Origin: Fretibacter rubidus
GTDB taxonomy: Bacteria > Pseudomonadota > Alphaproteobacteria > Caulobacterales > Maricaulaceae
Direction of reading: 5' to 3'
Assembly (NCBI RefSeq): GCF_041429785.1
Contig: NZ_CP163423.1
Span: 186,001 to 250,000 of the forward strand
Length of the DNA: 64,000 bases
Shown piece by piece: positions 33,326-37,911 of the stretch. The notes beneath the pieces are model-generated. The model was not told the DNA's origin and searched no databases. It saw only the letters and a program-made list of their open reading frames with translations. The position numbers and the translations under genes were made by a program. Position 1 is the stretch's first letter. Every line of letters starts with the position of its first letter.

Positions 33326-34057
33326 TCAGTCAGCGCTGACGTCTGCCTTATTCTTCCTATTCCAATCCGCGCAATAGCTGCGTTGGTTTGGCGTATTATA
33401 ACCGGGGGCTCTGGCGCATATTTCTTTGGCGGTTTTCGGTGTTGTTTGCTTTCGCGCCCGACTATCGCGAAGTTTTTGCACCTCTGGGTCGGGCACGACC
33501 TCTGTGCCTTTGGGGACCATGGTAATGACAAGCGGATTAGGCGACAACTGCATGGCTGCGCCAGACGCGGCATCGACCAACATAAAAGACCCGCCGACAC
33601 CAACGGCCACAATCGCGGCAGGCCCCGCCACTGCGGCAAAACCAAGACTGGTCGCGCCGAGCGAGGCCCCAACACCTGCGCCAACCCCTGCCAAGGATAG
33701 TCCAGTGACGGCACCCCCCGTCGCGGACGGTGCAAGGTTGCGACGGCTGAGGCCGGACGTTATCGCAAATTCCAAAGGTTCCATTCCGGGATAGGTCAAT
33801 GTCGCAATTGTATTCGTTCGGCGGCTGAGTTTTATTTCGCAAGGTGTGGGGGAACAGCTAAAATACTCTGGCTCCAGTGATTTATCTTTGCGGCGCGCAG
33901 CTTTGCTCGCCGTTGTCTCAATATCTGTGGTTACGGTAACCCCGGGCGGTACAGTTTCAAAACGCACACGCTCTGTTGTGCCTTTGGAAATCGTTGCGCA
34001 AGCTGGCAAGGACAGCATGCAAAATAAGATTAATAGGGGCCGCAAAATCGATGTCAT
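33326..34057 (-). CDS. Lipoprotein with PEGA-like domain, paralogue 1
   Basis: 243 residues. Lipoprotein signal peptide ending LPAC (MTSILRPLLILFCMLSLPAC). The mature N-terminus ATISKGTTERVRFETVPPGV resembles PEGA-type domains with CSPTPCEIKLSRR. A Gly/Ala-rich hydrophobic stretch follows (ATGGAVTGLSLAGVGAGVG), perhaps membrane-associated. Clearly paralogous with the next gene upstream, which it overlaps by 4 nt. Function unknown. Confidence 0.78.
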   Translation of the reverse strand: MTSILRPLLILFCMLSLPACATISKGTTERVRFETVPPGVTVTTDIETTASKAARRKDKSLEPEYFSCSPTPCEIKLSRRTNTIATLTYPGMEPLEFAITSGLSRRNLAPSATGGAVTGLSLAGVGAGVGASLGATSLGFAAVAGPAAIVAVGVGGSFMLVDAASGAAMQLSPNPLVITMVPKGTEVVPDPEVQKLRDSRARKQTTPKTAKEICARAPGYNTPNQRSYCADWNRKNKADVSAD

Positions 34058-34863
34058 GGATTGCTCTCACTGTTTGGCAACTCTGCCAGTGGCGTCTTTA
34101 GTGATGGTTTGCGCCGTCTTTGCCGCACACCGTCAACATTGGGGTCAAGGGTGTATTGCGCTCTGTCTTTGGCAAGGCGAACAAAAAGGGGATTGGGATA
34201 AATTGAATGATCGGCGCCTGTCACGGCGTCGGTTGTATCGGCGGCTAGCGTATAGGACGCCGCCCCAAATAAAATCATCCCGCCCCCGATTAAAGCTCCT
34301 CCCGCGAGCGGCGCGACAAGCACTGTGCCTGATTCAAGCACAGCGGTTCCAGCAATAAGCCCCGTGCTGGCGGCAGTACCAAGAGCCACATTGCCTCGGA
34401 TCAGGGGGTCTTTGATATCCGCAGGGTCTGCGAGTGAGACGGCTGTGCCGCTTTTGACGGGCGCATCGGTCGTGGCCGCTATGGGCGAGCGGCTATCGCG
34501 CTGTCGTGCGGCGGCTTGTTTTTTTAGCCGCGTTTTCTCGCGGTATCGCCGTTCGCTACGGTGATCTGAAAATACAGCAGCTTCATAGGGCGCGTAATCC
34601 TTATGCTCGATTAAAACAACGGCTTCCGTGCGGCGCGGCAATTTGAAAGAACAGGGCGTTGGCTCGCAGCCAATATAGGCTGTCTGAGTATCGCGGGGCA
34701 TTTTTACTATATCGGTATAGGCCCGCGCGCCGGGGGGCTCGGTAATGACCTTTATAGTTTCATGCGTGCCTTTGGTCACCGTCGCGCAGGCGCTCAGCAA
34801 TATTAGAGGCAATCCCACTAAAATATTAAAGCGCGCCCTCTGATATGCCTTGGTTTTAGCCAT
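34054..34863 (-). CDS. Lipoprotein with PEGA-like domain, paralogue 2
   Basis: 269 residues. Signal peptide with lipobox LLSAC, then CATVTKGTHETIKVITEPPG, and GCEPTPCSFKLPRR, matching paralogue 1 position by position. A Gly/Ala-rich region is again present in the middle (GTAASTGLIAGTAVLESGTVL), after which the sequences diverge. Overlaps paralogue 1 by ATGA, so the pair is one operon born by tandem duplication. Function unknown. Confidence 0.78.
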   Translation of the reverse strand: MAKTKAYQRARFNILVGLPLILLSACATVTKGTHETIKVITEPPGARAYTDIVKMPRDTQTAYIGCEPTPCSFKLPRRTEAVVLIEHKDYAPYEAAVFSDHRSERRYREKTRLKKQAAARQRDSRSPIAATTDAPVKSGTAVSLADPADIKDPLIRGNVALGTAASTGLIAGTAVLESGTVLVAPLAGGALIGGGMILFGAASYTLAADTTDAVTGADHSIYPNPLFVRLAKDRAQYTLDPNVDGVRQRRRKPSLKTPLAELPNSESNP

Positions 34864-35063
34864 GAAAAAACCGTGCAGAATGCCCGCGTCAAAGACAAAA
34901 CATCAAAGGTTTCACTCTATTTCATATCATTTCAGCATGTTTCAAAGGGCATTTGGTGCACTATTTTGATTTGTTAGGCCACATTGCCGTTGTGTTACAA
35001 AGATGAACGCACTGTTAACATGACTTTCAGCTTGGCCTCAGTCTTGCTATGGTAATAGGGCTT

Positions 35064-36782
35064 ATGACACATCTTATACGAACGCCTGTAAAAACTTTGA
35101 TCACCGCGCTTTGCTTATCAGCCGCCTTTAGCCTGCCAGCCCTAGCTCAATATAACCCAGAGACGGGTTATTACGAAACAAATGAGCGGGTCACGACAAA
35201 TCCGCAGGCCTTGGGCGCGACAACCGAAATTCGCGGGGCGTTGTCCCTACCAGAGATGAGCCCAGAGCAAATCGCGGCGGACATTGTGCGTGAATTTGAC
35301 CCGCAAACAGGCCTTCGGGTCAGTATCGCGCCGACATTTGATCCCTTTGAAGCCGACCCTAATTTGGCGGGGACAGCCAATCTGCGGACGGGTGCCTCTT
35401 CTGTTACGCTTGACGGGCAGCGGGTCATCGGCGGGGCTTATCTTGATTTATCGATGATTTATTCAACGGCCACTGACGATCCGTTTGATGTTCGCGGTTA
35501 TGACCGTGCGGTTTATGTGTCGGGACAGCCTGTGTCGCGCATATTGCAAGACGCGCAGACATTGGATTGTTCAACGAATACGACCGAAGTCGTTTATGAC
35601 GAAGGCTATAACCGGGGGTCATCATATGGCTATCTCGGCGGACTTTATGTGCTTTTCCCGCGCTACCGTGGGCACCGCGGTTATGGTCGGGGTTACGGCC
35701 ATCACCGGGGTTATGGCTCATATGGTTACGGACGTGGCCGGGGTCGCGACTATGGTCGTGGCGGTCGGGGTCATGGCGACGGATTTGGTCGCGGTGGTCG
35801 TGGTGGACATGGATCTGATGGCGGGCGTGGCCGGGGATCTGACGGTGGCCGTGGTGGTCGCGGATCTGATGGAGGTCGCGGCGGCCGGGGATCTGGCGGT
35901 GATAAGGGCTACAAAAAACACAACGGCAAGGTAACACCTGTTACGGATTTACCGAGCAATCCAGACCGTGTGCGCCGTATTCGCGACGCCACTGGAACGC
36001 CGACGCGTCGGACCGGCAATGGTACAAGAGGTCGGTCGAGTGATCGTCCCGTTACGCGTCCCAGAGTTGAGCGTCCCGGAACCGAGCGTTCAAGAGGAAG
36101 CCGCGGCACATCGCGCGATCGCATGAATGCCAAAAAAAGCAATCAACGCTCTGTGCCTGTGTCAAAGCGCATAAGCACTAGCGGCACGAACAGTCCTGTT
36201 TCGCGTCCAAGCTCTCGGCCAGCGACGCGTCCTTCTGTGTCGCGTCCTGTGTCCCAGCCCAGAGCTGTATCAAAGCCGCGTCCACAGTCGCGCCCGGTCT
36301 CCAAACCAAAGCCGCAGTCCCGTCCAGTGTCAAAACCGCGCAAGGTTGACCGCTCAACGGATCGCGAGTTTAGAAATCATAAATCATCCAAGTCGCGCAA
36401 GCATATGAACTTCTTTGCCAGTCCCGCGATTGTTGCCCCCGTGATGAGCGCCAGCGGTTACGCCCGTACAGATGTCTATCAAGACACACGCTGTATCCGT
36501 GAAGAAAAAGTCACGCTTCACATCCCGCAAGAACGCTTGGATGCGGCACGGTTTGATGGGCTGACGATAATTTTGCTTGATAGCGCAGGGGCTGAAGTGC
36601 CTGTTTATCTGCCCCCTAATTATATCGAAGGGTTCCGCCAAGCAGTCTCTGGCTATAGCGGTACGGTTACGCACTCTGGTGGCTATGCATCGCAGCCGCG
36701 CGTTATCCAACCCGCGCTTGACAGACCCGGCTATCCGCTGCGTGACCGCGCACCAACGCAGGGTGGGTATCCGCAGCAATAG
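35064..36782 (+). CDS. Exported Arg/Gly- and Arg/Ser/Pro-rich repeat protein
   Basis: 572 residues from ATG 35064 (AGGG upstream); an ATG at 35049 is also in frame. A signal peptide ends near PALAQ. After a folded-looking region of about 150 residues comes a Gly/Arg/Tyr/His-rich block (RGYGRGYGHHRGYG, then GGRGSDGGRGGRG repeats), then a basic Arg/Ser/Pro block with repeated SRPVSKPRPQ units. A C-terminal domain of about 150 residues (IREEKVTLHIPQERLDAARFDG) follows. No family recognised; likely a surface or periplasmic protein whose basic repeats bind an acidic polymer. Confidence 0.75.
   Translation: MTHLIRTPVKTLITALCLSAAFSLPALAQYNPETGYYETNERVTTNPQALGATTEIRGALSLPEMSPEQIAADIVREFDPQTGLRVSIAPTFDPFEADPNLAGTANLRTGASSVTLDGQRVIGGAYLDLSMIYSTATDDPFDVRGYDRAVYVSGQPVSRILQDAQTLDCSTNTTEVVYDEGYNRGSSYGYLGGLYVLFPRYRGHRGYGRGYGHHRGYGSYGYGRGRGRDYGRGGRGHGDGFGRGGRGGHGSDGGRGRGSDGGRGGRGSDGGRGGRGSGGDKGYKKHNGKVTPVTDLPSNPDRVRRIRDATGTPTRRTGNGTRGRSSDRPVTRPRVERPGTERSRGSRGTSRDRMNAKKSNQRSVPVSKRISTSGTNSPVSRPSSRPATRPSVSRPVSQPRAVSKPRPQSRPVSKPKPQSRPVSKPRKVDRSTDREFRNHKSSKSRKHMNFFASPAIVAPVMSASGYARTDVYQDTRCIREEKVTLHIPQERLDAARFDGLTIILLDSAGAEVPVYLPPNYIEGFRQAVSGYSGTVTHSGGYASQPRVIQPALDRPGYPLRDRAPTQGGYPQQ
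35640..36345 (+). repeat. Coding low-complexity repeats (RG-rich and RPVSKP-rich)
   Basis: Roughly 35640-35910 codes for GRG/GYG/GGRGSD units; roughly 36200-36345 codes for SRPVSKP-type units of about ten residues. The DNA has imperfect repeats of similar length, so copy number may vary between strains. Confidence 0.75.
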
Positions 36783-36891
36783 CGTTCTCCCTGATGTGCC
36801 GTATTGAGACATATTTGTATCAAAACGGCACAGTGTCCGTGCGGGGGGCCCATAAACCCGTCATAATCTCGCCATTTTGGGGAATTATGAC

Positions 36892-36908
36892 TTGGCATAA
36901 CGCTTGCA
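36892..36908 (+). promoter_or_regulatory. Sigma-54 (-24/-12) promoter candidate
   Basis: TTGGCATAACGCTTGCA matches the TTGGCAC-N5-TTGCW consensus with the GG and GC elements exactly 10 nt apart. Predicted start of transcription is about 36919. Such sites need an enhancer-binding activator; none is seen nearby. The match is direct; function is inferred. Confidence 0.6.
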
Positions 36909-36918
36909 ACGATAATGT

Positions 36919-37031
36919 TGAACAGATGGTGTCATCACTTTTCTGATCCCGACCTCGCCACTCCCACATCCGGCGCGGTCAACTTTTAGTCAAAACCACC
37001 TTCTCCCCGTCTTTATGGCGGGGATTTTTTT
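36919..37031 (+). ncRNA. Candidate sigma-54-dependent small RNA of about 113 nt
   Basis: Bounded by the -24/-12 promoter candidate and a strong terminator, with no open reading frame of note inside. It contains C-rich single-stranded-looking segments (CACTCCCACATCC, TTCTCCCCG) that could pair with ribosome-binding sites, as in several alphaproteobacterial small RNAs. Entirely inferred; no homologue recognised. The alternative is a long murI leader with an attenuator. Confidence 0.4.
37004..37031 (+). terminator. Rho-independent terminator upstream of murI
   Basis: Stem CCCCG (37005-37009) / CGGGG (37019-37023) with loop TCTTTATGG, followed by A and seven T residues. Confidence 0.82.
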
Positions 37032-37110
37032 GACTTGATTTTGCCCTATCGCCGTCATCTTTTTATGGTTTTAAACCCTTTGGTAAGGGGGCTTGCGGCA
37101 AAGCTGATCT

Positions 37111-37911
37111 ATGGCACATGCACTTATATTTGATTCCGGCGTTGGCGGGCTTTCCGTTTCACGCGAAATCCGTGACCTGCTACCCGCTCTGCGCCAAAGC
37201 TATGTCGCTGATGATATCTTTCGCCCTTACGGCGAGAAGACACCTGCGCAATTACAAGCCCGCTTGCCAGAATTACTTGCGACACTCGAATTAATGCTGT
37301 CGCCTGACGTCATTGTCATTGCGTGTAACACGGCCTCGACCACCGCGCTTGACGCTATTCGTGCTGCGGTGCGTGCGCCCGTGATTGGCGTCGTGCCGGC
37401 GATAAAACCCGCCGCGCAGATGACGCGCACAGGCACGATTGCGGTGCTAGGAACACCCGGCACGGTCAAGCGCCGCTATGTTGACGGTCTTATCCGCGAC
37501 CATGCCTCTGACTGTCACGTTATCTTGCAAGGCTCTGTCAACTTGGTCGATATAGCCGAAGCGAAATTAGCTGGCGGCGCCGTCGACCTTGCCCGGATTA
37601 AAGCCGAACTGGCCCCGTTGTTTTCAGGCAAACACGGCGCTGATATTGACGCGGTCGTTTTGGCTTGTACCCATTTCCCACTCTTAAAGGACGAGTTAAA
37701 AGCCTCGCTTACCCAGTCTGTAAGGTGGATTGATAGCGGGGCCGCCATTGCGCGGCGGGTGAAATCTGTTCTTGATGACAAAGCTGTGGATATCGCCAAG
37801 GGGTTTAACAGCGCTGATAATGCGTTTTTGATCGGCCCTGATACGGGGGCCGCGCGGGCGGCGACGTTTCAAGATTTTGGTTTTGCCCGCGTTATCGGGC
37901 TGCTCTCTTAA
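37111..37911 (+). CDS. murI: Glutamate racemase
   Basis: Makes D-glutamate for peptidoglycan. 266 residues with FDSGVGGLSV, the first catalytic Cys in ACNTAS (C72) and the second in ACTHFPLL. The length fits the family. It converges with the yqaA-like gene 10 nt away. Together with amgK/murU it adds to the cell-wall supply functions in the window. Confidence 0.96.
   Translation: MAHALIFDSGVGGLSVSREIRDLLPALRQSYVADDIFRPYGEKTPAQLQARLPELLATLELMLSPDVIVIACNTASTTALDAIRAAVRAPVIGVVPAIKPAAQMTRTGTIAVLGTPGTVKRRYVDGLIRDHASDCHVILQGSVNLVDIAEAKLAGGAVDLARIKAELAPLFSGKHGADIDAVVLACTHFPLLKDELKASLTQSVRWIDSGAAIARRVKSVLDDKAVDIAKGFNSADNAFLIGPDTGAARAATFQDFGFARVIGLLS

Follow-up and report, generated by a model that had tools for sequence, protein, structure and literature searches.

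A -24/-12 promoter of the sigma-54 type paired with an intrinsic terminator in a gap without a gene raises the question of whether a small RNA is made at this place in Fretibacter rubidus and, if so, which protein would switch it on and what the RNA would act upon. The window, that is, the whole 64,000-nt stretch of DNA analysed here, spans 186001-250000 on a single contig of 3.45 Mb, and positions are counted from its first base. The gap (36783-37110, 328 nt) holds both promoter and RNA; it is bordered on its left by a plus-strand gene to which no function was assigned (35049-36782) and which lies outside the RNA, and on its right side by murI (37111-37911). Within the gap, the sequence TTGGCATAACGCTTGCA (36892-36908, plus strand) has the exact GG-N10-GC spacing of -24/-12 promoters, and its letters, its coordinates and the extent of the gap are as the original prediction gave them. 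The reading that we favour as a whole, and regard as likely, is that of a trans-acting small RNA controlled by a TacA-like activator and sigma-54, whose C-rich loops would pair with G-rich ribosome-binding regions.

With 11 of 13 consensus positions, TTGGCATAACGCTTGCA has the best -24/-12 score of the window. The chance of such a match had been thought low, but 83% of simulated windows (first-order, n=60) hold at least one site as good, the mean being 1.7. Since 64 kb of sequence will often hold one such match, proof of the promoter has to come from its conservation in relatives. In the whole genome, in which rpoN is present, TTGGCAN6TTGC occurs 29 times versus 5 for the reversed control. A crude calling of ORFs puts 24 of these 29 sites inside ORFs, and a closer reading of the remaining five (L060 being judged by eye) leaves that of the window as the only clearly intergenic one; the notion that the other sites form a regulon was rejected because nearly all of them are inside ORFs.

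It could be argued that the RNA is driven by a sigma-70 promoter (ATGACT-N18-GATAAT, 36887-36916, a match at 9 of 12 positions) and that the -24/-12 match is incidental. Such sites, however, number 2 in 2 kb versus 1.2 expected, and in another genome of the same genus (G001) GATAAT is not conserved whereas the -24 and -12 boxes are both kept; we regard this explanation as highly improbable.

If the C of the GC is taken as -12, transcription from the sigma-54 promoter would start at 36919-36920, where a near-invariant GA stands in an alignment of 22 members. The predicted RNA (36919-37031, plus strand) would thus measure about 112-113 nt, in agreement with the length of about 113 nt first proposed, and the strong terminator said to end at 37031 was found there. 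In the predicted fold of this strand, hairpin 1 (36920-36948) precedes hairpin 2 (36951-36980), whose apical loop (36960-36971) exposes CUCCCAC (36961-36967), a putative seed. An unpaired linker, TTAGTCAAAACCACCTT (36986-37002), then leads to the intrinsic terminator (37004-37031), with an 8-bp stem at 37004-37024 and a T7 tract reaching 37031. The folding z of the RNA, terminator included, is -4.4, and an Rfam scan of the window returned tRNA only, with no family matching the RNA.

The transcript might also be read as a short mRNA for a small protein, inasmuch as the window's own genome (G000) and G001 display, by eye, short frames that end at the same TAG and start at or just before the predicted +1. 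Yet the longest frames within the transcripts range from none to 32 codons, and at 11 of the 36 loci assembled below there is no start-to-stop frame; this possibility appears extremely remote.

In G001, the RNA again stands before murI, behind a promoter that has all 13 consensus positions; GACTTGGCA-N6-TTGCAA, the linker and the terminator are kept, and much in between has diverged. A plain nucleotide search was set aside as a way to relatives: it gave matches in 4 of 61 genomes, own included, and those outside the genus were read as a terminator (L005) and a chance in-gene match (L004). A model running from promoter to terminator was searched in 137 family genomes; with E values of up to 0.5 accepted, it gave matches in 37 genomes, many of them terminator only, and 21 loci, window's included and other genera represented, with promoter, hairpins and terminator. 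To these, an enhancer search added one locus (G009) and a promoter-blind model four; a further ten came from 398 genomes of the order, searched with a sequence profile that 22 members had supplied. The resulting set comprises 36 loci from 33 genomes: 35 belong to the window's family and one, in G276, to another family of the order. Tandem copies of the RNA were seen at L131 (G099:C27), L199/L203 (G096:C81) and G276:C98:2090-3185. In G099 and in G096, each of the two copies has a -24/-12 site of its own; for G276, one copy was counted and the second was left out, unread.

Hits of the promoter-to-terminator model were dropped if they lacked a -24/-12 site or were terminator only (L103, L109, L111-L113, L125, L132, L134-L136, L138-L146 and L148 were inspected); L115-L117, L119, L122, L124, L126-L128 and hits without a locus also stand outside the counts, unread. 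The weak profile hits L225 and L227-L233 were not counted: L225, L228, L230 and L233 show a -24/-12-like site, L229 looks unrelated, and L227, L231, L232 and weaker hits without a locus were left unread. A collection scan returned 32 stretches, of which three from this group (L235, L252 and L253) are members; the remaining 29 come from unrelated groups and, left unread, were attributed to chance. The named records with the RNA are one Caulobacterales metagenome bin and two Hellea bins (copies read like G071 and G078), and the NCBI taxonomy places Hellea in Robiginitomaculaceae, order Maricaulales.

Because entry into the 36 loci required a -24/-12-like site, the promoter-blind loci are the only independent test of the promoter. 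The promoter-blind model was built on seven transcripts of one genus, with their promoters omitted, and was run on 137 genomes at E up to 0.01; its 12 matches consist of its 7 own sequences and 5 new ones. Four of the new loci (G036, two tandem G096 copies and G093), all in the model's own genus, carry a -24/-12 site with 12 or 13 of 13 positions, placed exactly 26 nt before the model start, the same distance as in the model's own G097. At G079, the weakest match (E 0.0046, another genus), no -24/-12 site was found at the expected place. It is such conservation in relatives that, judging from sequence, raises the promoter and the RNA above chance. Promoter and terminator, whose conservation the original prediction had singled out for examination, are both conserved, and the predicted sigma-54 promoter at 36892-36908, ahead of a terminator-ended RNA of about 113 nt, is confirmed as far as sequence comparison goes.

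A script finds a terminator at every one of the 36 loci, the majority of them recovered by models that include the terminator; the transcripts delimited by script are 94-134 nt long. With the terminator removed, the bodies have a mean z of -2.8 against dinucleotide shuffles, and z falls below -1 in 19 of 22. Consensus folding of the 22 aligned transcripts gave no pairs; that of 7 transcripts from one genus recovered hairpin 1 and the terminator. In predicted folds, [ACU]UCCC is exposed outside the terminator at 33 of 36 loci versus 22% of shuffled bodies, in the form CUCCCAC at 21 loci; it is exposed at least twice at 9 loci, versus 2% of shuffled bodies. No exposed UCCC was seen in the predicted folds of G099a and G096b, and G072 has it only in the terminator loop. 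The terminator loop itself holds the motif at five loci (G090, G100, G072, G086 and G276). At L107, L123, L129, L223 and L220 this loop contains UUCCCA or CUCCCAC, as if the terminator had turned into an extra pairing loop.

The gene next to the RNA changes from locus to locus. With each tandem pair (G099 and G096) counted as a single locus, the right neighbour in 34 loci is a gene that we name acyl-CoA-synthetase-like in 23 and a convergent one that we name ApaG-like in 8; it is murI in 2 and none of these in 1. Conversely, among 19 murI loci (G000's own included), inspected over 700 bp upstream (372 bp for L026), the RNA is found only in G000 and G001. murI is an incidental neighbour, and the pairing of RNA and murI in the original prediction does not extend to the family. 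A cis-acting leader or attenuator, whose terminator would set read-through into the next gene, could find a footing in the same-strand acyl-CoA-synthetase-like gene of those 23 loci. Nevertheless, the RNA is kept beside the convergent ApaG-like gene or murI, occurs in tandem in G099 and G096, and has its own terminator at every locus. Such persistence, whatever gene follows, argues against its being the leader of any gene, murI included, and we hold this alternative to be very unlikely.

On the left side, a homologue of the 35049-36782 gene lies upstream in 27 of 34 loci. Its 577-aa protein has, by eye, a signal-like start and a glycine/arginine-rich middle, and it has no match in Pfam or NCBIfam. 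Farther left, on the minus strand, 33326-34057 and 34054-34863 are adjacent, overlapping genes with similar lipoprotein-like starts by eye (CATISKGT and CATVTKGT).

A sigma-54 promoter calls for an activator, and the upstream DNA offers candidate sites for one. Enhancer-like site 1, TGTGCCGTATTGAGACA (36795-36811), differs by one mismatch from the palindrome TGTYYCNWWWYGRRACA and starts 97 bp before the -24/-12 site; enhancer-like site 2, TGTATCAAAACGGCACA (36816-36832), has two mismatches and lies 21 bp downstream of site 1, and the two together make up one 38-bp near-palindrome. With up to two mismatches, TGTYYCNWWWYGRRACA occurs about 50-120 bp before the -24/-12 site in 31 of 36 loci, versus a mean of 0.71 and a highest value of 23 for 300 permuted palindromes, a count that is not independent because the pattern was drawn from some of the same loci. 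At the tandem copies, the sites have at most one mismatch in both G099 copies, and at most two and at most three in those of G096. Distances from site to promoter cluster near 53, 64, 75, 85, 96, 106 and 118 bp, the best period being 10.62 bp (R 0.84) for the 31 best sites and 10.44 bp (R 0.79) for all 50 sites within three mismatches. None of 5000 jittered sets reached the observed phasing, a figure that is not a strict probability because the loci are related. As judged from sequence only, the spacing of the palindromes follows the helical repeat of about 10.5 bp, as expected of sigma-54 enhancers.

A search with the palindrome pattern only, in 12 genomes and with 20 chosen places read, led to two sigma-54 sites, namely the new RNA member in G009 and the promoter of an HTH gene. 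In a majority of the genomes so searched, the TGTYYCNWWWYGRRACA pattern does not clearly outnumber its reversed control, and therefore the site alone defines no regulon; the 20-base core of the palindrome was likewise rejected in the own genome, with 31 matches at up to three mismatches versus 26 for the control.

The HTH gene has a TGTYYCNWWWYGRRACA-type site and a -24/-12 promoter in front, as the RNA does. From its HTH domain and promoter, and from the general description of Caulobacter StaR, it is presumably StaR-like. Its relatives, searched at E up to 1e-25, occur in 94 of 99 family genomes; a gene start was obtained for 44 of 47 loci (L288, L292 and L302 failed), L309 and L310 being omitted as more distant paralogues. 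A -24/-12 site lies near the start codon in 39 of these 44 upstream regions, and the palindrome, with up to two mismatches, precedes 27 of the 44, versus a mean of 1.44 and a highest value of 20 for 300 permuted patterns, which is an independent test. Phasing at StaR-like promoters is weaker (R 0.48). In the own genome, the site before the StaR-like gene (L296) has 16 of the 17 bases of window site 2 and three mismatches to the general pattern. We also note a StaR-like HTH gene at G009:C2:908916-909535 (L181) that has both the enhancer site and a -24/-12 promoter; its relatives in L304-L307 and L311 show no such promoter, and the wiring may have changed inside a single family.

Which activator would act at these sites? 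Four proteins of the own genome have a strong sigma-54 activator domain, and we label them NtrC-, NtrX- and PspF-like, from neighbourhood and sequence, and TacA-like. A GAFTGA-type loop is absent from the NtrC-, NtrX- and PspF-like proteins and from four weak domain matches; one protein only, the TacA-like response regulator with receiver, sigma-54-interacting AAA+ and Fis-type HTH domains, has such a loop, as GSFTGA. It scores 342.6 bits against the FlbD model, whose cut-off is 750, and lies below the cut-off of all of the best 25 NCBIfam models listed, among which there is no TacA model. As excerpts of the literature describe Caulobacter, TacA and FlbD have GAFTGA, NtrC and NtrX lack it, and TacA drives sigma-54 genes including staR (PMC10274813); ShkA, a kinase stimulated by c-di-GMP, is the route by which TacA becomes active at G1/S (PMC7010744). 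On account of the GSFTGA loop and of these published facts on TacA, FlbD, NtrC, NtrX, ShkA and staR, we infer the TacA-like label and the developmental link. It is quite likely that the activator of the RNA is this TacA-like response regulator. The flagellar or nitrogen link originally suggested for the sigma-54 promoter was thus probably wrong as to the pathway, with NtrC- and NtrX-like proteins devoid of the loop and the GSFTGA protein below the FlbD cut-off. At an E-value threshold of 1e-60 and with paralogues counted in, relatives of the TacA-like protein turn up in 135 of the 136 genomes of the family; in genera where the RNA was not found the protein has 62-68% identity, and in G017, where the RNA was likewise not found, 79%.

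The same small RNA and promoter could instead answer to a PspF-, NtrC- or NtrX-like activator, all of which are present in the genome. Against this, besides their lack of the loop, stands the enhancer site that the RNA has in common with the StaR-like gene, together with the pspF-pspA interval, where the palindrome is approached no closer than 4 mismatches and the -24/-12 consensus at no more than 7 of 13 positions; moreover, Caulobacter NtrC, also without the loop, is reported at sigma-70 promoters in the excerpted source (PMC10274813). We consider another activator unlikely. At G000:C1:2977819-2981295 (L064), the PspF-like protein lies beside a PspA-like gene and, as it has no GAFTGA-type loop, this phage-shock-type regulator may not use sigma-54.

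Taking the TacA-like activator as the preferred reading, the RNA may be compared with known systems. CrcZ/CrcY, Qrr and GlmY are small RNAs with an enhancer-activated sigma-54 promoter; they differ in that their host groups and activators are unrelated, sequences having been compared through Rfam only. By its predicted loops, the RNA looks like the C-rich-loop small RNAs such as sX13 and GsrN, and we file it under neither. sX13 of Xanthomonas, as excerpts portray it, has three stems with apical C-rich loops and represses mRNAs with G-rich motifs near the start (PMC3771888). The likeness extends to a weak Rfam match (RF02232, 23.3 bits) to two G099 copies; however, the RNA stays below the 50-bit cut-off in the five loci searched, where weak matches including sX13 (23 bits) and anti-hemB (24) were both under half the cut-off, the locus is different, and the excerpts of the sX13 source do not mention sigma-54 control. 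GsrN, a Caulobacter small RNA and thus of the same wider group, pairs through a C-rich 5' loop with a G-rich leader, depends on the general stress sigma factor and raises katG expression, according to the excerpted paper (PMC5869019). It differs, on the same partial account, in its six-cytosine loop and its locus near stress regulators, here replaced by CUCCCAC, a sigma-54 site and other neighbours. ChvR of Caulobacter, in the excerpts of its description, is likewise a small RNA under two-component control that pairs through stem-loops, but its control is by ChvI-ChvG and it is said to be specific to C. crescentus (PMC6237742). As for the pathway, excerpts on Caulobacter ShkA-ShpA-TacA-StaR describe a similar arrangement, in which an enhancer-binding protein of the response-regulator class has sigma-54 targets, staR among them (PMC7010744, PMC10274813). 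Within open-licence PubMed Central, we found no small RNA target of that pathway in print and no paper on a TacA- or sigma-54-controlled small RNA of this group; RpoN and TacA are absent from the main text of a Caulobacter Hfq paper (PMC11005374), and a paper on cell-cycle ncRNAs names TacA once, as a predicted target (PMC5988900).

The comparison of genomes points to the predicted promoter and terminator, the RNA family, the phased enhancer sites and the site common with the StaR-like gene, and suggests the following model. Sigma-54 RNA polymerase would bind 36892-36908 and become active once the TacA-like response regulator, phosphorylated, occupies the two palindromes (36795-36832), so that the RNA would be made in step with the StaR-like regulator gene. 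The RNA, of about 113 nt, would present CUCCCAC in the hairpin 2 loop together with a linker that contains CCACCUU, and would most likely pair with the G-rich ribosome-binding regions of several mRNAs and repress them. That the RNA pairs with G-rich mRNAs is, in our judgement, somewhat probable; a small set of leaders, from 30 TacA-like, 44 StaR-like and 44 window genes, contained no GTGGGA. For a timing tied to the cell cycle or the stalk we see an even chance.

In Caulobacter, as partial sources have it, the TacA phosphorelay sets the timing for a portion of the G1/S program, with protein genes such as spmX and staR as its described outputs, and staR mutants have short stalks (PMC5590869). 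Since the promoter and enhancer sites of the RNA match those of the StaR-like gene, the RNA, which is conserved among a group of Caulobacter relatives, may add an RNA layer to the stalk-development program. We put forward tentatively, at slightly less than even confidence, that this fast-diverging, lineage-wide and locally duplicated family would be the RNA arm of a TacA-like/sigma-54 developmental regulon, made together with the StaR-like regulator at every firing of the phosphorelay in the swarmer-to-stalked transition, silencing mRNAs through their ribosome-binding sites and joining c-di-GMP signalling to post-transcriptional control. If true, a small RNA under a TacA enhancer would permit a fast lowering of protein synthesis at multiple targets and illustrate a way in which an activator also turns genes off, and the palindrome common to the RNA and the StaR-like gene provides a concrete candidate binding site for TacA-like proteins.
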